A stretch of 64,000 bases of DNA from Candidatus Zixiibacteriota bacterium (GTDB lineage Bacteria; Zixibacteria; MSB-5A5; GN15; JACZUZ01), in contig JAJRPM010000004.1 in assembly GCA_024280775.1 (NCBI GenBank), positions 1 through 64,000 of the forward strand, written 5' to 3'. Positions 13,514 to 21,158 of the stretch are shown here, piece by piece. The notes beneath the pieces are model-generated. The model did not search any database and was not told the DNA's origin. It was given only the letters and a program-made list of their open reading frames with translations. Position 1 is the stretch's first letter, and each line of letters opens with the position of its first letter. The position numbers and the translations under genes were made by a program.

Positions 13514-16066
13514 ATGAACTTCTTACGAACATCACTTCGTCGCGCGCGCCTCTGCGGAACCTTGCGCACCACTACTTCAGTTTCATCACTAGCGCTTCTC
13601 ACTTCATGTACACTGATATTGCTGTCACTATCGCCTCGCTTGGCATCGGCTCAGTGGACTGAGCTAGGTCCTTACGGAAAAAACATACACGCATTAACCC
13701 AGGCTCCTGATAATCCGAGCATTCTCTTTGCAGGTTCATTCGGCTGGGGAACGTTTTCCAGCTTTGACAATGGCGCAACTTGGGTCAATCACCGCCTTGG
13801 CCTGACAAACAGTTTTGTGCGCTCGATTAAGGCTCGTAGTTCGGCGGTAATAATCTGCGGCTCGAATGACAACATAGCTAGAAGCTCAGATAGCGGGACG
13901 ACCTGGACTATTGTCCAGACAACTCTCAAGTCGGTGCGTTCGATAGATTGGGATCCGGTTACCGGTAAGTGGTATGCAGGAACCTTTGGTGACGACCTCT
14001 ATGTTAGTGTCAATGATGGTATAACCTGGACCAAGCAAGTTGTCAGTGATGCAATAAGTTTGCAAACGCAACGCAAGATTCGGTCGGTTAAGGTATTCGG
14101 CGCTGATTCGATTTATGTTGCAGGTTCAATTACGAATATTACGACGGGTGGAGCGCTTTTTCGCAGTATTAACGGCGGCCTGACCTGGACTCAGGTGCAA
14201 CAAGGTATTGGTGTGCGAAGCACAGTTAACTCTTTGTCGATTTCTCCTAACACGCACGCTACAAGTTATATTTTCGGCACGGCCTCAAATGGCGTGTACA
14301 AGAGCACAACCGGTGGTATTACAACAGTCAAGACTAACGCTGATAGCACATTGCATCCATTGGCTGACCTTGATGTGTCAACTACGGGATTTACCAGCGC
14401 CTATCGTATGGCAGGAACAAACACTCTTGCGAATCTATATCTTCGGCATCTTGGTGACACAACTTTGGGCTGGCTAAGCTCCATCGGACTTCCCGGTGGC
14501 AAAGCGGTCCCGAAGACGATTCTCGACGCCAACGGCGGCGGGAGAATAATCGCGGGCTTGGAGGAAGATGGCGCTTATGTCTCCAATGACAGTGGATTGA
14601 ATTTCAGCCCACTATCACAGAGTCTGTTGCGTACCGCAGTTCGCGGGTTGGCTTTCACTTCAACCGGTAGAGTTGTTGCCGGCCTGGGGTTTGGCGATAA
14701 GATATTCCGCAGTGACAATCTTGGCGTTAGCTGGACTCGCGACTCGTTAGGTTCATTCAACTCCATTTTTGGTATCGAAAAATCTCCGGCGGGTGAATTG
14801 TATGCGGCGCAATACGGCACAGGTGTCCTTAAGAGTTTAGACAACGGCACATCCTGGGCCAAAACAGATACATTGGTAATCAATAGGTTTGTGCGTGCGA
14901 TTGCGCCGGATCCTTTTAGCTCCGGTGTAGTGTATGCCGGGACAGGTAACGGCGTATTCAAGACATCAAATGGCGGACTGACCTGGGTTGACGCTAAAGC
15001 CGGGATGATTCCTTTCAGCACCTCTATTCGCTCTCTCGGAGCCTCGCCACTAACTCCGGGGTTACTACTTGCTGGAACCGATGTCGACAATTTGTATCGT
15101 AGCGCTAATGGTGGTTTGAGTTGGACGCATGTTACTTCGGTCAACGGCTTTGCCCCTCAGGATGTGTTTGTGCGTAGTATAGGATTTGATCCGCTGGCGG
15201 CGAATATCGCCTATGTAGGTTCGGACAGTGGACATGTATATAAGAGTGTTGACGCCGGAAACAACTGGAGCTTGCTGGTTGACCTCCCTACTGTGAATTC
15301 GGTGCGTAGGATTATAGTTGACCCAAACAACACTTCGAACATTTTTGTCGCAACGTTTGGCGGCGGGGTGTTTGTCAGTGAGGACGGCGGTGTGTCATGG
15401 TACACTTACAACGATCCACTGGTAAGTTTGAAAGTATACACAATTGAGATTCGTCCCGGCACAAACCCTCCTGAGCTTTGGGTTGGCACACGCTGGGGCG
15501 TCTGGAAGCAAATTTTCACCGGACCGCCAGCGGATATTCTTCCGGTAATATCCGGCCCGGCGACCTCATGCGTGACTGCCGGTTCAATGGTCAACCTGAG
15601 CTATACCGCCACTGACCAGAATACTAATGACATATTGCAGTTTTCGCTTATCGGCCCGGGAAGCGTTACCTGGTCTGCAGCACAGAGTCCCAATAGCGTA
15701 ACATATCAATGGTTGACGTCTATTTCAGATGTAGCCGGGTCTCCCTACACAGTCGACATTATTGTTGACGACGGCGCAGGTGGACTCGATACTGCTTTTG
15801 TTGAATTAACTATCGTCGACCCGGCAAACCCAACAGGCTGTACGTGCTGCGTGGTAGCCGGTGACGCTAACCATGATGCGAAGTTCAATATTGCCGATGT
15901 AACATTTATGATCAATCGCATTTTCGCAGGGGGGCCGGCTCCGTTTTGTTCCGACGAAGCGGATGCTAATGGGACTAATAGTTTTAATATTGCCGATGTA
16001 ACGTATTCGATAGCGCGGATATTTTCTGGTGGCCCGGCCCCGGTTTGTGGTTCTACCGGGATTTAG
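13514..16066 (+). CDS. secreted Asp-box (BNR/sortilin-like) beta-propeller protein with dockerin-like tail
   Basis: The 850-aa product has a signal peptide ending near LASA|QW (about residue 46). Many Asp-box repeats of the form S-x-D-x-G-x-T-W follow through about residue 650, for example SSDSGTTW, SINGGLTW, SLDNGTSW and SVDAGNNW, as in sortilin/Ycf48-type propellers. An Ig/cadherin-like segment (about 675-770) precedes the double dockerin-like module (777-850), which is flanked by CTCC and CGSTG. No catalytic residues identify an enzyme, so it is more likely a binding scaffold. Its stop lies 50 bp before pgsB with no terminator between, so the pgs operon could be partly read from this gene's promoter. 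Confidence 0.85.
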   Translation: MNFLRTSLRRARLCGTLRTTTSVSSLALLTSCTLILLSLSPRLASAQWTELGPYGKNIHALTQAPDNPSILFAGSFGWGTFSSFDNGATWVNHRLGLTNSFVRSIKARSSAVIICGSNDNIARSSDSGTTWTIVQTTLKSVRSIDWDPVTGKWYAGTFGDDLYVSVNDGITWTKQVVSDAISLQTQRKIRSVKVFGADSIYVAGSITNITTGGALFRSINGGLTWTQVQQGIGVRSTVNSLSISPNTHATSYIFGTASNGVYKSTTGGITTVKTNADSTLHPLADLDVSTTGFTSAYRMAGTNTLANLYLRHLGDTTLGWLSSIGLPGGKAVPKTILDANGGGRIIAGLEEDGAYVSNDSGLNFSPLSQSLLRTAVRGLAFTSTGRVVAGLGFGDKIFRSDNLGVSWTRDSLGSFNSIFGIEKSPAGELYAAQYGTGVLKSLDNGTSWAKTDTLVINRFVRAIAPDPFSSGVVYAGTGNGVFKTSNGGLTWVDAKAGMIPFSTSIRSLGASPLTPGLLLAGTDVDNLYRSANGGLSWTHVTSVNGFAPQDVFVRSIGFDPLAANIAYVGSDSGHVYKSVDAGNNWSLLVDLPTVNSVRRIIVDPNNTSNIFVATFGGGVFVSEDGGVSWYTYNDPLVSLKVYTIEIRPGTNPPELWVGTRWGVWKQIFTGPPADILPVISGPATSCVTAGSMVNLSYTATDQNTNDILQFSLIGPGSVTWSAAQSPNSVTYQWLTSISDVAGSPYTVDIIVDDGAGGLDTAFVELTIVDPANPTGCTCCVVAGDANHDAKFNIADVTFMINRIFAGGPAPFCSDEADANGTNSFNIADVTYSIARIFSGGPAPVCGSTGI

Positions 16067-16116: not shown

Positions 16117-17328
16117 ATGACAGCGCTGGGCATTTCAATTCTTCTGCTTGTGATTGTATCGTCATATGTGATAGCTCAGGCGTCACGACACGAAAAACAT
16201 TTGCGCGAGATTCCAATTCGTGTGCATGTCAACGGCACTCGTGGCAAGTCATCAGTTACTCGTCTGATTGCCGCCGGTTTGCGCGCAGGCGGAGTCGCAA
16301 CTATCGCCAAGACCACCGGCACCAAGCCCAGATTTATTTACACAGACGGCTCGGAGGTTCCAGTAGTCCGCGCCGGAAAAGCCAACATTATTGAGCAGGT
16401 TCGTATAGTGCGCCGCGCCGCTGAGCTAGGGGCCGAAGTGTTGGTGGTCGAGTGTATGGCTATCAAACCGGAACTGCAGTCGCTTCTTGAAGACCGTATT
16501 GTCAAATCGACTCATGCGGTAATAACCAATGCGCGTGCAGATCATCTCGACGAAATGGGCCCTACTGTCACCGATGTAGCATATAACCTCTCCAGGACTG
16601 TAGCGCGAAATGGCGCGCTGTTCACTGCAGAACGCGAGCGTCTGCCAATGCTTTGCGAAAGGGCGGCAGAGCGCAATTGTTCGGTGAACGTTGCAATAGA
16701 AGAATCTATCACCGACGCGCAGATGATGGGGTTTTCATACTTTGAACACGCTGAAAATGTGGCTCTTTCACTATCGGTTTGTCAGTCATTGGGGGTTGAC
16801 TGCAAAACAGCGCTTGAGGGAATGTACGAATCCACACCTGACCCCGGGGCTTTGCGGATGTTTCGACTGGAGGTTTTCGGTAAGAAAATCACCTTCATTA
16901 ACGCCTTCGCGATAAACGACCCGGATTCCTATATTATGGTATGGAAACGAATGAAAGCGAGAGTGCCCGCTGACGCTCGCTTTGTGACTATTGTCACATC
17001 ACGTTCGGATAGGGCCCAACGCGCAGAACAATTGAGTGAACTTATCGCCGGTGAGCTTCAGGCGGATTTGAGTTTGGTTGCAGGCGAAGGTTCACGTCCG
17101 GTTATTGTGCACGCAAAACGTAACAAAACTTTTACCGGCATAGTGGAGGATTTTGGAGACGCCTCTCCTGCCGATATATTTGAACGAGTGCTGGCATTTG
17201 CCGCAACAGGGGAAGTTGTTGTATATGGTATTGGCAATATAGTTGGCGCAGGAGAAGACATAGTTAATTATTTTCGTAGTAGGGGAAAAGAAGTTGTTTA
17301 CGGAAACACTACAAGATCTGATAATTAA
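16117..17328 (+). CDS. pgsB: poly-gamma-glutamate synthase subunit PgsB (CapB)
   Basis: The 403-aa product has one N-terminal transmembrane helix (about 3-20) followed by a Mur-ligase-like ATPase domain. The P-loop is NGTRGKSS (39-46), with VECMAIKPE and TNARADHLDEMG further on, all characteristic of PgsB/CapB amide ligases. These enzymes extend a poly-gamma-glutamate chain at the cytoplasmic face of the membrane using ATP, together with PgsC. Length is close to the Bacillus protein (about 393 aa). GAGGG lies 6 nt before the ATG. The 3' end overlaps pgsC by 35 bp, a sign of translational coupling. Glutamate as substrate is inferred from the family. Confidence 0.95.
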   Translation: MTALGISILLLVIVSSYVIAQASRHEKHLREIPIRVHVNGTRGKSSVTRLIAAGLRAGGVATIAKTTGTKPRFIYTDGSEVPVVRAGKANIIEQVRIVRRAAELGAEVLVVECMAIKPELQSLLEDRIVKSTHAVITNARADHLDEMGPTVTDVAYNLSRTVARNGALFTAERERLPMLCERAAERNCSVNVAIEESITDAQMMGFSYFEHAENVALSLSVCQSLGVDCKTALEGMYESTPDPGALRMFRLEVFGKKITFINAFAINDPDSYIMVWKRMKARVPADARFVTIVTSRSDRAQRAEQLSELIAGELQADLSLVAGEGSRPVIVHAKRNKTFTGIVEDFGDASPADIFERVLAFAATGEVVVYGIGNIVGAGEDIVNYFRSRGKEVVYGNTTRSDN

Positions 17329-17785
17329 GTCCGTTGGCCTGGGCTTACTTCTGAGTCTGCTATTTAGCGAGACGCTTGGCCTGGCCGCCGGCGGCATGGT
17401 TGTGCCCGGCTACATCGCCCTGATGCTTCATGATCCAGGCAGGTTATTGGGTACAATTCTAGTTGCTCTGGCTACGTTTGGTGCAGTTAAGTTGCTAAGC
17501 TCGGTAGCCTTCATCTATGGGCGTCGACGAATTGTGTTTACGATTCTCATAGGCTTCATTCTTGGCCTGGTGTCTCGCGACTTACTGGTTTTTGATATTA
17601 ACGGTATCAATTTCGAATTACACACAATCGGCTTGATAATCCCGGGACTAATCGCCAACTGGATGGAACGTCAGGGTGTTATCTCTACCCTGTCGATGAT
17701 GATTATCGCCGCAGTGTTTATTCGCTTGCTGTTGATGATACTTTCCGGCGGTGATATTGGTCTCGGGGGGACAGAATTATTATGA
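17294..17785 (+). CDS. pgsC: poly-gamma-glutamate biosynthesis membrane subunit PgsC (CapC)
   Basis: The 163-aa integral membrane protein has about five hydrophobic segments and the family pattern LGLAAGGMVVPGYIAL near the N terminus and GLIIPGLIANWMERQG in the second half. PgsC partners with PgsB in the membrane-bound synthase and probably forms the export path across the inner membrane. The start is TTG at 17294, preceded by AGGGG. The gene begins inside pgsB and its end overlaps the pgsW start by 4 bp, so the three genes are tightly coupled. Bacillus PgsC is about 149 aa, so this one is full length. Confidence 0.95.
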   Translation: MFTETLQDLIIKSVGLGLLLSLLFSETLGLAAGGMVVPGYIALMLHDPGRLLGTILVALATFGAVKLLSSVAFIYGRRRIVFTILIGFILGLVSRDLLVFDINGINFELHTIGLIIPGLIANWMERQGVISTLSMMIIAAVFIRLLLMILSGGDIGLGGTELL

Positions 17786-18780
17786 AGTGGAAAGAGAACA
17801 AAGCTCCCAACTGGCATTTGCTGGCGCTCGCAGTACTATCTCTGATAGTCTTTATGCTGGCAGAGAAAACCGCAACTCAGGTCAAGCAACCTCGCTATCG
17901 CAAAAAAATCCGCGCCGCTCAAACAACGCTTGCGGCTCAACAAGCTATTCGAGATGAGTTGAGCAAGAGAAACATCAAAATTGACTTGCGCAACGACCCT
18001 TGGGGAACCGGGCTAATTGGTGAGAAGCGCACAGTTATTACCTCCGATAGAGGTGTGATTTCCGCAAAGGTGTTGGCGACTAATCCGAATTTTGCCGCGG
18101 CTTTTGTGGACTTGTTGCATCGCGCCGGTGTCAGGAAAGGTGACAAAGTTGCCATTGGTATGACCGGCTCATTACCGGGCTGGGATATAGCGATGCTTGC
18201 GGCCTGCAAGGCATCCAAAGTTGAACCGGTTGTAATCTCATCTGTCGGCGCCTCTGACTGGGGAGCCAATCGTCCTGATTTGACCATACTGGACATGGAA
18301 CGGCTTATTCGCGACAAAGACATTATGCCATTCAAATCTATTGCGGCGTCGATGGGTGGCGGTGGTGACTATGGCCGCGGTCTCTCTCCTGAGGGCAGAA
18401 AACTCATTCGTGAATCTATGGCTCGTAATGGCGTGCCAGCGCTTGAAGGCAAGTCGCTGGAGGAGAATATTCAATTGCGCATGGCATACTACGAGAAACA
18501 CAGCGATAGCGCAGGCTATGCCGCATATATCAACATTGGTGGCGGTCTCTCCAGCTTGGGAGGCCGTTACAACAATCAGATTATTCCTTCAGGGTATTCG
18601 CGGCGCTTGCCGCCGGCGAATTATCCGGTTCTGGCGGTAATCAATCGAATGTCCGAGAAGGGTATACCGATTATCAATCTGACAAATGTACTAAAGATTG
18701 CGGGGAAATACGGGTTGACGACAATTATCAGCCCCGAAGCGCCTGATATTGGCGAGGGAACTCTGTACTTCAAAGGATAG
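17782..18780 (+). CDS. pgsW: poly-gamma-glutamate system protein PgsW
   Basis: The 332-aa product has one N-terminal transmembrane helix (about 12-27), a short basic helix and a soluble domain with GMTGSLPGWDIAMLAACKA and ASMGGGGDYGRGLSPEGR. I recognise this as the PgsW family that accompanies pgsB and pgsC in some bacteria in place of the Bacillus PgsA/CapA. Its biochemical role is not known to me. It overlaps pgsC by ATGA. Topology suggests the soluble part is periplasmic. No CapA-type phosphoesterase and no CapD/gamma-glutamyltransferase gene lies nearby. Confidence 0.88.
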   Translation: MKWKENKAPNWHLLALAVLSLIVFMLAEKTATQVKQPRYRKKIRAAQTTLAAQQAIRDELSKRNIKIDLRNDPWGTGLIGEKRTVITSDRGVISAKVLATNPNFAAAFVDLLHRAGVRKGDKVAIGMTGSLPGWDIAMLAACKASKVEPVVISSVGASDWGANRPDLTILDMERLIRDKDIMPFKSIAASMGGGGDYGRGLSPEGRKLIRESMARNGVPALEGKSLEENIQLRMAYYEKHSDSAGYAAYINIGGGLSSLGGRYNNQIIPSGYSRRLPPANYPVLAVINRMSEKGIPIINLTNVLKIAGKYGLTTIISPEAPDIGEGTLYFKG

Positions 18781-18801
18781 TACAATATCTCGACGACTAT
18801 C

Positions 18802-18915
18802 ATGCTGACAATAGCTCTCGCTTTGATTGTGTTTGCAGTGATACGAATTGACATCAAACATTACTTTGGTCGCCGCAAACGTGTCACAGCGCCGAGGCCC
18901 GGCGAGGGAGTTTAG
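18802..18915 (+). CDS. tiny single-helix membrane protein in the pgs operon (PgsE-like position)
   Basis: A 37-codon frame fills the gap between pgsW and the next gene and ends 8 bp before that gene's GTG. The product has one hydrophobic helix at its very N terminus (MLTIALALIVFAVIRI), then a basic patch (FGRRKR) and a Pro-rich end, as expected for a tail-in small inner-membrane protein. Bacillus pgs operons also end with a small protein, PgsE/CapE (about 55 aa), but there is no clear sequence identity. No good ribosome-binding site is visible; translation may depend on coupling. Plausible rather than proven. Confidence 0.5.
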   Translation: MLTIALALIVFAVIRIDIKHYFGRRKRVTAPRPGEGV

Positions 18916-18923
18916 GACTAATA

Positions 18924-19844
18924 GTGAAAAGTTGCATATTAGGGAAATACTATCTTGCGCGCTTGGCGTTTGGCGCTGTCTTAGTGACACTTGTTTCTCT
19001 GTCTATTGGCGCCGGGAGTGTTTCGGCCAAGCAGATAACACCTGAATCCGGCGAGTTGATGACACTGGAGATTGCCGGTAAGCAAAGCGCCTATTATCGA
19101 ATACCTAAAGACAGCTCGCTGTATGTGACATTGACCGGCCCGGGTACACTCACTGGTATTGTTCGTTTGATTACTCCATCTGATGGAGATACTCCTGTCA
19201 GTTACACGTTGATGGTTAGCAATGGCGTTGAGATAGTCAAGACACTCAACTCCACAACTTCTGCCAGTGATTGGCATTGGCTGGGTAATTCGGAGAACGC
19301 GGGTAAGTCACGTAAGTTTCATGTTAGAGTTGGCGAGGGTAAACATCGACTGCGTTTCGCTTTGAAGAACACTGTCGCTTCGAGCGCGGCAATCAAATTT
19401 GACTATAATAAGCGCGCGCCACATGTAGGTGAGTCTCCCCTGTATCCTATCGCAATGAAAGAACAGGTGACGGTGCAGGTTCGTGAGCGTGCGCTCGACT
19501 ATGCGATAATGGACGATACTATTCCTGTTGAAGTTCGGGTAATTGGCCCGACTCGCCTGCGAGTGGTTTCGCGCTTGCTTTACTCGGGGCTGATGAAAGG
19601 CCCTAAGCAGTATTCGATTGTTTCAAAAATGGATAGCCGAGAGCTACCGATAAAAACATTGAAAACGAAAAAGTCATTTACTACCAAAATAATTAATCAC
19701 CCGGAATGGATTTCTGGCCGAAGCAGGACGTTCTATGTGCCGATACCAGAAGGAGAGCATACTATATCTTTCCTGATGGACGCCATTGAGGCCCCGGGAA
19801 TCGCACTACGTTTTTCAATACCTAAAGAGGACACGAGAAAGTGA
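18924..19844 (+). CDS. exported protein of the pgs operon, unknown family
   Basis: The 306-aa product starts at GTG, with TAGGAC upstream, and has a signal peptide (cleavage near SVSA|KQ, about residue 35). The mature part reads as beta-rich, possibly two similar sandwich domains: both halves contain a SRxF-V/HVRVGEGKH or SRTFYVPIPEGEH motif (near residues 130-142 and 272-284), which suggests an internal duplication. I know no family. Its position between the synthase genes and an outer-membrane barrel suggests a periplasmic partner of polymer export. The stop codon overlaps the next start (GTGA), so the two are translationally coupled. Confidence 0.8.
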   Translation: MKSCILGKYYLARLAFGAVLVTLVSLSIGAGSVSAKQITPESGELMTLEIAGKQSAYYRIPKDSSLYVTLTGPGTLTGIVRLITPSDGDTPVSYTLMVSNGVEIVKTLNSTTSASDWHWLGNSENAGKSRKFHVRVGEGKHRLRFALKNTVASSAAIKFDYNKRAPHVGESPLYPIAMKEQVTVQVRERALDYAIMDDTIPVEVRVIGPTRLRVVSRLLYSGLMKGPKQYSIVSKMDSRELPIKTLKTKKSFTTKIINHPEWISGRSRTFYVPIPEGEHTISFLMDAIEAPGIALRFSIPKEDTRK

Positions 19845-21007
19845 GACAGACAAGAACAACTAAGACGCTTCCAGGTGGCGCTTCAGGTAGCGCCAGACTG
19901 CGCTACGCGATTTGCGCATTGCTTTTTGCTTTTTTGGTTACCGGCCTGCAAACATCCCAAGCGCAAATCATTCCACAGGGGAAAACGACTGGAATCAAGA
20001 CCAAGAAGCGCAGAAAACACGTAAAACGCCCGACGAAGCTCGACGGTTACATTACATTAAGTAGTTACTATGATGACAATGTATTTGGATACTCGGACGC
20101 TGATAAGACTTTGTATAACAGTGGCGTTAAGCCGGAGCGTTTTCCTATTGACCAGATCGAAGATGTTGTCACGACTGTTGCCGCTCGCGGCGATATTCTT
20201 TGGAGCAGAAAGAGACGCTCTAATTGGCGTTTGCGTTTCCGCTACGACGCTTCTCTCTATCAGAGCAATACTTTCCGTAACAATAATCAATTCGGTGTTG
20301 AACTGCGTCGCAAAAAACGACGTTCCTACACTGAGCTTTCAATCTTGTGGACTCCTAACTACTATCTGCGTCATTTGTTCTGGAGTAGCGTGAGAGCATC
20401 GACATTACGCACCGCAACCGATCCGACTTATATAGCGGCCGACCTGTCAAAAGTCGGTTTGTACCTTGAGCGTGAGCAACGTATCGCTCGTCGCCTGTAC
20501 GGACGTCTAAAAGTCGGATATATTTCAAAAAACTACGGGGCGCCATTTGATGAACGTGACAACAAGACTCTCTTCTTCGCCGCGCGTCTAAGAAAAATCA
20601 TGAGCCGTCGCGTTGAAGCATATATAGGAGCCTCTATCGCTTCGGTGAGTTCGAGCGCCTCGGACTACAACATCGCCGGTATCTCAGATATTAGTAATAC
20701 CGAAACCGGATTCCGTGGCGGGTTGGAGGTCAAACTCGACAAGCGTGGAAGATTGGTCTTGAATGAATCATTTTCGTACAAACACCAATCCTACAATACT
20801 TCTGATGTCGCCGATGTGTTCCATTACAATCGCTCGGACAATGAAGTCCTATGGAGCAACCGCCTGACCTGGCGCGTACATCGCAGTTGGCAGCCGAGAG
20901 TGTTCTACACTCTGCGCAACAGCACCAGCAATGTGCCGGTCGGGGTCAGCGATGTCGGCGCCTACAGCTCAAACCGTTTTGGGATGCAGATTCTGCATTA
21001 TTTCTAG
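19841..21007 (+). CDS. Arg/Lys-rich outer-membrane beta-barrel of the pgs operon
   Basis: The 388-aa product starts at GTG and has a signal peptide (about 1-41, ...QTSQA|Q). A strongly basic linker follows (KTKKRRKHVKRPTK, about 53-66), then amphipathic strands ending in MQILHYF with terminal Phe, typical of BAM substrates. The strands are unusually rich in Arg and Lys (SRKRRSNWRLRFRY, VELRRKKRRSY, REQRIARRLYGRLK). AlgE, the alginate exporter, uses an Arg-rich barrel lumen for a polyanion; by analogy this barrel may conduct anionic polyglutamate. That is inference from composition and operon position, not homology. It is the last gene before the terminator at 21052. Confidence 0.8.
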   Translation: MRQTRTTKTLPGGASGSARLRYAICALLFAFLVTGLQTSQAQIIPQGKTTGIKTKKRRKHVKRPTKLDGYITLSSYYDDNVFGYSDADKTLYNSGVKPERFPIDQIEDVVTTVAARGDILWSRKRRSNWRLRFRYDASLYQSNTFRNNNQFGVELRRKKRRSYTELSILWTPNYYLRHLFWSSVRASTLRTATDPTYIAADLSKVGLYLEREQRIARRLYGRLKVGYISKNYGAPFDERDNKTLFFAARLRKIMSRRVEAYIGASIASVSSSASDYNIAGISDISNTETGFRGGLEVKLDKRGRLVLNESFSYKHQSYNTSDVADVFHYNRSDNEVLWSNRLTWRVHRSWQPRVFYTLRNSTSNVPVGVSDVGAYSSNRFGMQILHYF

Positions 21008-21051
21008 CCAAAGAATCGCGCACAGGTAGCGCATATATCTTCGTTCTGAAT

Positions 21052-21090
21052 AAATCGCTCGCTTGATTCCAAAAACCAAGCGAGCGATTT
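21052..21090 (+). terminator. terminator of the pgs operon
   Basis: A perfect 14-bp inverted repeat (21052-21065 and 21077-21090) with an 11-nt loop lies 45 nt after the last pgs-operon stop. The T tract is weak (ATTTACTTGT), but the stem is symmetrical and A-rich at its base, so it may work in both directions. Confidence 0.75.
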
Positions 21091-21158
21091 ACTTGTGGGC
21101 CGATTTCGCGGTTGTTGATATTGCGTAAACCAGCTTAACTGGTTACTCTGCACCGTCC

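Follow-up and report, generated by a model that had tools for sequence, protein, structure and literature searches.

The 64,000-nt window analysed here, positions 1 to 64,000 of contig JAJRPM010000004.1 from a Candidatus Zixiibacteriota genome (3.17 Mb, 97.5% complete), carries on its plus strand, at 16117–21007, a five-gene operon encoding PgsB, PgsC, PgsW, an exported protein and an outer-membrane β-barrel (Table 1). We consider it probable (about 0.75) that this is a diderm operon for making and secreting poly-gamma-glutamate (PGA), in which the exported protein, a tandem jelly roll, and the barrel form the periplasmic and outer-membrane path of the polymer. This reading is supported because the pair is linked to the pgs genes, is fused into one protein in some organisms, and is encoded by genes whose stop and start codons overlap. 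All unprefixed coordinates are those of the window; labels beginning with L and G denote the other loci and genomes with which it was compared.

The three synthesis genes were assigned by family scores. PgsB scores 415.8 bits against TIGR04012 (equivalog cut-off 222.7) and PgsC 128.4 bits against TIGR04011 (equivalog cut-off 96.45). PgsW, the name used here for TIGR04332 ("poly-gamma-glutamate system protein"), scores 300.4 bits, above the cut-off of its model. The coordinates and scores bear out the overlap of pgsB, pgsC and pgsW reported in a first-pass annotation of this DNA, as well as the order of the two terminal genes, the GTG start of the barrel gene overlapping the TGA stop of the exported-protein gene at 19841–19844. 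Neither terminal protein matches a Pfam or NCBIfam family. As the same annotation had stated for CapA, CapD and gamma-glutamyltransferase, a genome-wide search with PF09587 and PF01019 yielded no CapA and no GGT/CapD-type gene in the source genome. The CapB and CapC required by the PGA model of CapsuleFinder are both present at the locus; the accessory CapA and the loner CapD, absent from the genome, are non-mandatory in that model (PMC5542703).

Table 1 Features of the pgs locus and its surroundings in the window.
Feature	Position	Strand	Description
Possible accessory gene	13514–16066	+	Exported BNR/sortilin-type propeller with C-terminal dockerin-like repeats; PF15902, weak PF00404
pgsB	16117–17328	+	Poly-gamma-glutamate synthase, Mur-ligase-like amide ligase; TIGR04012 equivalog; Mur_ligase_M
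pgsC	17294–17785	+	Membrane subunit; TTG start within pgsB; TIGR04011; PF14102
pgsW	17782–18915 including tail; 17782–18780 as far as TAG	+	TIGR04332; two transmembrane segments
Nonsense codon	18778–18780	+	TAG within the pgsW frame; CAG in same-genus relative L046
Exported basic periplasmic protein	18924–19844	+	Two tandem jelly-roll domains; AlphaFold2 model, Foldseek
Outer-membrane 14-strand β-barrel, putative polymer exit	19841–21007	+	AlphaFold2 model, Foldseek
Probable terminator hairpin	21051–21091	+	−24.7 kcal/mol, z −4.5; no clear U tract

Linkage of the two terminal genes to pgs genes

In Zixibacteria, strong matches to the barrel and exported-protein family profiles occur in the same 16 of 132 genomes, all of which carry the type A pgsBCW defined below, and neither profile has a strong match in the remaining 116 genomes. 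The linkage between barrel and pgs genes is near-exclusive (Fisher p about 6e-18 over the 132 genomes). Used as a single query, the window barrel matched 15 of the 132 genomes, all among the 19 that have PgsW, and each match lies on the same contig ~1 kb downstream of pgsW except in G112, where the contig is broken. The three genomes with PgsW outside the set of 16 (G063, G081 and G082) carry a divergent pgsBCW, with PgsW proteins 26–27% identical to that of the window, and have no strong match to the barrel or the exported protein. Local barrel matches of 18–25 bits in six Zixibacteria genomes, including G082, cover short stretches and were treated as generic barrels; no exported-protein match was found in those genomes. 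The co-occurrence of these homologues with pgsBCW, which the first-pass annotation had suggested as a check, was confirmed, the barrel being found almost only alongside pgs genes.

Searching named genomes for PgsW provided 80 loci for comparison (L054–L133). Their neighbouring genes were compared by targeted profile searches, phmmer clustering of all neighbours having given singletons only. The loci divide into type A (L054–L117) and type B (L118–L133), which are separate on the PgsW tree. Type A loci come from Zixibacteria, Cloacimonadota, Eisenbacteria, Gemmatimonadota, Planctomycetota and Calditrichota, plus Fidelibacterota, and two loci labelled Armatimonadota nest inside Cloacimonadota; the pair of exported protein and barrel recurs in about seven phyla. 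The exported protein is encoded in 62 and the barrel in 58 of the 64 type A loci. Five of the six loci that lack the barrel are cut by a contig end; the sixth (L067) has one on its own contig at a distance of ~12 kb. The 16 type B loci contain neither gene. A gamma-glutamyltranspeptidase gene occurs in 13 of them and an AstE/AspA-like gene lies nearby in 13, whereas none of the 64 type A loci has either gene or the DctM-like genes that mark type B. Diderm pgsBCW operons thus fall into two kinds, one having the barrel and no transpeptidase close by, the other having gamma-glutamyltranspeptidase and lacking the barrel. In G148 and G152, Fidelibacterota genomes that have a type B operon, and also in G151, the barrel is encoded in a second cluster. 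This cluster includes a separate pgsBCW in G151 and in G152; in G148 it lies at a contig end and contains the exported-protein gene. The barrel-less type B operons are also linked with DUF6305 and DctM-like genes, examples in Zixibacteria being L049, L052 and L053.

The association was quantified in two further phyla. In a set of 125 Cloacimonadota genomes, PgsW and the barrel occur together in 102, the barrel alone in 4, PgsW alone in 3 and neither in 16 (Fisher p about 7e-14). In all seven genomes with just one of the two (the four barrel-only genomes and the PgsW-only ones, L088 and L112 among them), the contig is broken next to the operon. Of 107 barrel genes, 99 lie immediately downstream of pgsW in the same orientation, with a median gap of 1098 bp. 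The association is looser in Planctomycetota: 8 of 343 sampled genomes have PgsW, and 5 of these have the barrel within ~3 kb; the barrel gene has been relocated to the 5′ side of pgsB in this phylum and is still in the pgs cluster. As a separate observation, a conserved open reading frame (ORF) of ~90–115 codons (KEFLDLVE...RHYK-like) lies directly 3′ of the barrel gene in many Cloacimonadota (seen in L081, L192, L196, L197, L200, L202 and L203).

The two terminal proteins are also coupled to one another, in most cases translationally. The stop codon of the exported-protein gene overlaps the start of the barrel gene in 35 of 52 loci, and in two Cloacimonadota loci (L116 and L117) a single ORF of 641–642 residues encodes the pair as a fusion. 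The barrels of Eisenbacteria, Gemmatimonadota and Planctomycetota possess an extra N-terminal domain of jelly-roll type that matches the exported-protein profile.

Predicted structures of the barrel and the exported protein

The AlphaFold2 (AF2) model of the barrel, built from a 53-member family alignment, has a mean predicted local distance difference test score (pLDDT) of 87.5 and comprises 14 strands, with short turns at one end of the barrel and long loops at the opposite end, in agreement with the barrel assigned in the first-pass annotation. The N-terminus contains a hydrophobic segment consistent with a signal peptide, and the chain ends in HYF, the final F being shared with about half of the relatives. 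Foldseek aligned the model with the 14-strand porins CymA and OmpG with E values of about 1e-9 to 1e-6, TM-scores of 0.43–0.55 by query length and ~10% sequence identity. Among the Pfam porin families BBP2_2 and OMP_b-brl, the window barrel has no match above the gathering cut-off, and 8 and 13 of the 53 relatives, respectively, match weakly.

The Arg/Lys-rich composition and the basic linker at residues 53–66, from which a path for a polyanion had originally been argued, are not traits of the family, the median isoelectric point (pI) of which is 6.4; overall basicity of the barrel was rejected as a family character. With lumen- and lipid-facing residues assigned by family hydropathy on the AF2 strands, the lumen-facing strand residues carry a mean net charge of +5.2, positive in 49 of the 53 barrels, and the loops and termini a mean of −5.7, consistent with the basic lumen that had been predicted. 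Three pgs-linked barrels outside the assignment set have lumen charges of +8 to +12 and five relatives that are not pgs-linked, all from Planctomycetota, −2 to +3, a contrast that is partly confounded by phylogeny because the pgs-linked Planctomycetota barrels reach only +1 to +6. The 25 most conserved barrel positions, the start Met aside, are all in extracellular loops or outer strand halves. Such a peak is unusual for a porin and distinguishes the family from CymA and OmpG, with which it shares the barrel fold and the strand number; the conserved loops probably form a gate.

The AF2 model of the exported protein (pLDDT 90.5) consists of two jelly rolls in tandem, the relative orientation of which is uncertain given a predicted TM-score (pTM) of 0.61. 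Its Foldseek matches include tandem carbohydrate-binding modules of family CBM22 and the cellulose secretion protein BcsB, all with low TM-scores, so that the likeness is at the level of the fold only. The N-terminus is hydrophobic and resembles a signal peptide, and a lipobox is absent in 57 of 58 family members. The mature protein is basic (pI 9.7), as are most of its relatives (median 9.3; above 8 in 46 of 58).

Interruption of pgsW

The first-pass annotation described a complete operon with an additional 37-codon membrane ORF between pgsW and the exported-protein gene. This ORF (18802–18915) lies in the pgsW frame beyond an in-frame TAG and, in an alignment of the window with 16 relatives (17 sequences), corresponds to the C-terminal transmembrane helix and basic tail of PgsW. 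Type A PgsW homologues are 365–389 residues long with this helix and tail included. The ORF was therefore rejected as an extra subunit, and since it belongs to pgsW, the operon has five genes, with pgsW interrupted by a nonsense codon in this assembly. The five genes are present as described; the completeness of the operon is doubtful in view of the TAG. Intact PgsW is predicted to have two transmembrane segments, N- and C-terminal, with a large domain in between, and the positive charges at both ends of the protein suggest that this domain is periplasmic.

Reassignment of TAG as a sense codon was rejected: other genes here, such as that of the barrel, terminate in TAG, so no change of the genetic code is indicated. 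Comparison with the same-genus relative downstream of the TAG shows identity at 39 of 44 residues, and of the 28 codons that differ, 23 do so synonymously. Because this stretch is conserved and has changed mostly at synonymous positions, the interruption is either recent or an assembly error. A real nonsense codon in a decaying, non-working operon, which would be compatible with an export function at the family level, would explain the loss of the C-terminal helix and tail from PgsW. We regard decay as unlikely. All five genes are otherwise intact, the conservation past the TAG points to a recent event, a sequencing or assembly error, or a tolerated change, and tolerance is conceivable since the N-terminal transmembrane segment would still anchor the domain.

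Proposed export route and alternatives

PgsB and PgsC are established in Bacillus as making and extruding the PGA chain. In the route and order of steps that we infer, they would build the glutamate polymer at the inner membrane and extrude it into the periplasmic space, with PgsW, its large domain predicted to be periplasmic, standing in for PgsA/CapA. On its way across the periplasm the polyanion would be bound or guided by the basic jelly-roll protein, itself docked on the barrel, and the chain would exit via the positively charged lumen, past the conserved extracellular loops as the probable gate. The periplasmic and outer-membrane path for a polyanion suggested in the first-pass annotation thus withstands the genome comparison, the barrel model and the lumen charges, and is retained here with neither its AlgK-like partner nor its basic linker. 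That the polymer reaches the cell exterior in such organisms is independently supported by Cloacimonadota enrichments, in which, according to the main text of the report, cells are embedded in a matrix stained with 4′,6-diamidino-2-phenylindole (DAPI) and taken as PGA, DAPI being not fully specific (PMC13082233).

Several observations weigh against this reading. Five Cloacimonadota genomes (G208, G212, G213, G217 and G271) have no exported-protein gene beside pgs, and their barrel gene, where it is at the operon, follows pgsW directly; the jelly-roll protein is therefore not universal, and the barrel is the more constant part. In Planctomycetota with PgsW, the barrel is undetectable in G483 and G604, and in G469, where the locus is on a short contig. 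Four Planctomycetota without PgsW carry a divergent barrel (62–175 bits), which in two of them (L184:6782–8604 and L186:3709–5592) adjoins a VTC-domain (PF09359) gene. The lumen charges depend on hydropathy rather than on model coordinates, and their contrast between linked and unlinked barrels is small within Planctomycetota. Finally, the operon may not be fully functional in this genome, pgsW being interrupted.

The VTC domain belongs to a polyphosphate-polymerase family, and the divergent Planctomycetota barrels are possibly an exit for another polyanion. In one genome without pgs genes (L183), no VTC gene was called next to the divergent barrel. The barrel could belong to a broader family through which linear polyanions cross the outer membrane, comprising a PGA branch and a VTC-linked Planctomycetota branch serving another polymer; this extension is tentative and rather improbable. 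At two other Planctomycetota loci (L189:3249–11702 and L190:3264–11904), the genes flanking pgsBCW encode a VIT/VWA protein and a TrkH-type transporter, no barrel was recognised, and the polymer exit may be different there.

Two alternatives concern the function of the barrel and its cargo. The barrel could take up gamma-glutamyl fragments for re-use, or anchor the capsule, while the polymer leaves by another way. Its nearest solved folds, CymA and OmpG among them, are uptake channels, conserved extracellular loops would suit capsule binding as well, and no known anchoring gene is present in the source genome. However, the fold matches, at ~10% identity, are those expected of any 14-strand barrel, type A loci lack the gamma-glutamyltranspeptidase, AstE-like and DctM-like genes of type B, and the barrel and the periplasmic protein are tied to the synthase genes and occur fused with one another, which makes uptake or anchoring quite unlikely. 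About as unlikely is export by the same two proteins of a related gamma-linked polymer or oligomer other than classical PGA: PgsB and PgsC were assigned by family score, PgsW replaces PgsA, and the Zixibacteria assignment comes from genes and not from a purified polymer, but both equivalog models were passed well above their cut-offs and a DAPI-stained PGA-like matrix is described in the main text of the Cloacimonadota report (PMC13082233).

Comparison with known systems

The window operon shares with the PgsBCA/CapBCA(DE) systems of Bacillus the PgsB and PgsC homologues, encoded by overlapping genes, and differs from them in having PgsW, in lacking CapA, CapD and GGT, and in the two outer-envelope proteins. 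PGA genes have been reported in the majority of bacterial phyla, including many diderm ones, and the published genetic model of the PGA capsule has no outer-membrane component (PMC5542703). The operon is the one described phylum-wide in Cloacimonadota by Calusinska et al. 2026 (PMC13082233), whose main text presents the PGA biosynthesis gene as near-ubiquitous, together with a PGA-like matrix. That main text names three genes (CapB, CapC and a CapA-like gene) and does not refer to an outer membrane, export or a barrel. The open-access papers searched contain no named outer-membrane partner or route for PGA, as the first-pass annotation had also held.

The AlgK analogy drawn there did not survive. 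AlgK is a tetratricopeptide repeat (TPR) lipoprotein and AlgE an 18-strand barrel; an AlgK-like TPR partner was rejected on the AF2 model, the exported protein being closer to BcsB or to pairs of carbohydrate-binding modules. What remains in common with alginate export is a synthase operon with a dedicated barrel, a basic lumen and a polyanion, the differences being the jelly rolls, the 14 strands and the almost invariable absence of a lipobox. Cellulose export resembles the proposed system in that a tandem jelly-roll periplasmic protein feeds an outer-membrane barrel. The BcsC barrel has 16 strands, whereas the system described here would combine 14 strands with a polyanionic peptide polymer and no TPR scaffold was found. 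Pfam and PDB sequence searches revealed no homology of either family to BcsB or BcsC, the BcsB match being one of fold.

We propose that a peptide polymer is secreted here by a synthase-dependent system equipped with a dedicated barrel. If correct, the synthase-plus-barrel principle extends from polysaccharides to a peptide polymer, and the two-protein exit candidate in most Cloacimonadota and several other phyla poses a directly testable question.

Flanking features

The operon is followed by a strong hairpin and, downstream of it, a tRNA-Leu gene. The stability of the hairpin agrees with the terminator proposed in the first-pass annotation, but it lacks a clear U tract and was not called by a consensus terminator scan. 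On the other side, the propeller gene ends 50 bp upstream of pgsB. Full-length relatives of its product are encoded immediately 5′ of pgsB in other Zixibacteria (L046/L054, L055, L056 and L045), and related proteins occur near pgs genes in L068 and L071, making the propeller protein a candidate surface accessory of the operon.

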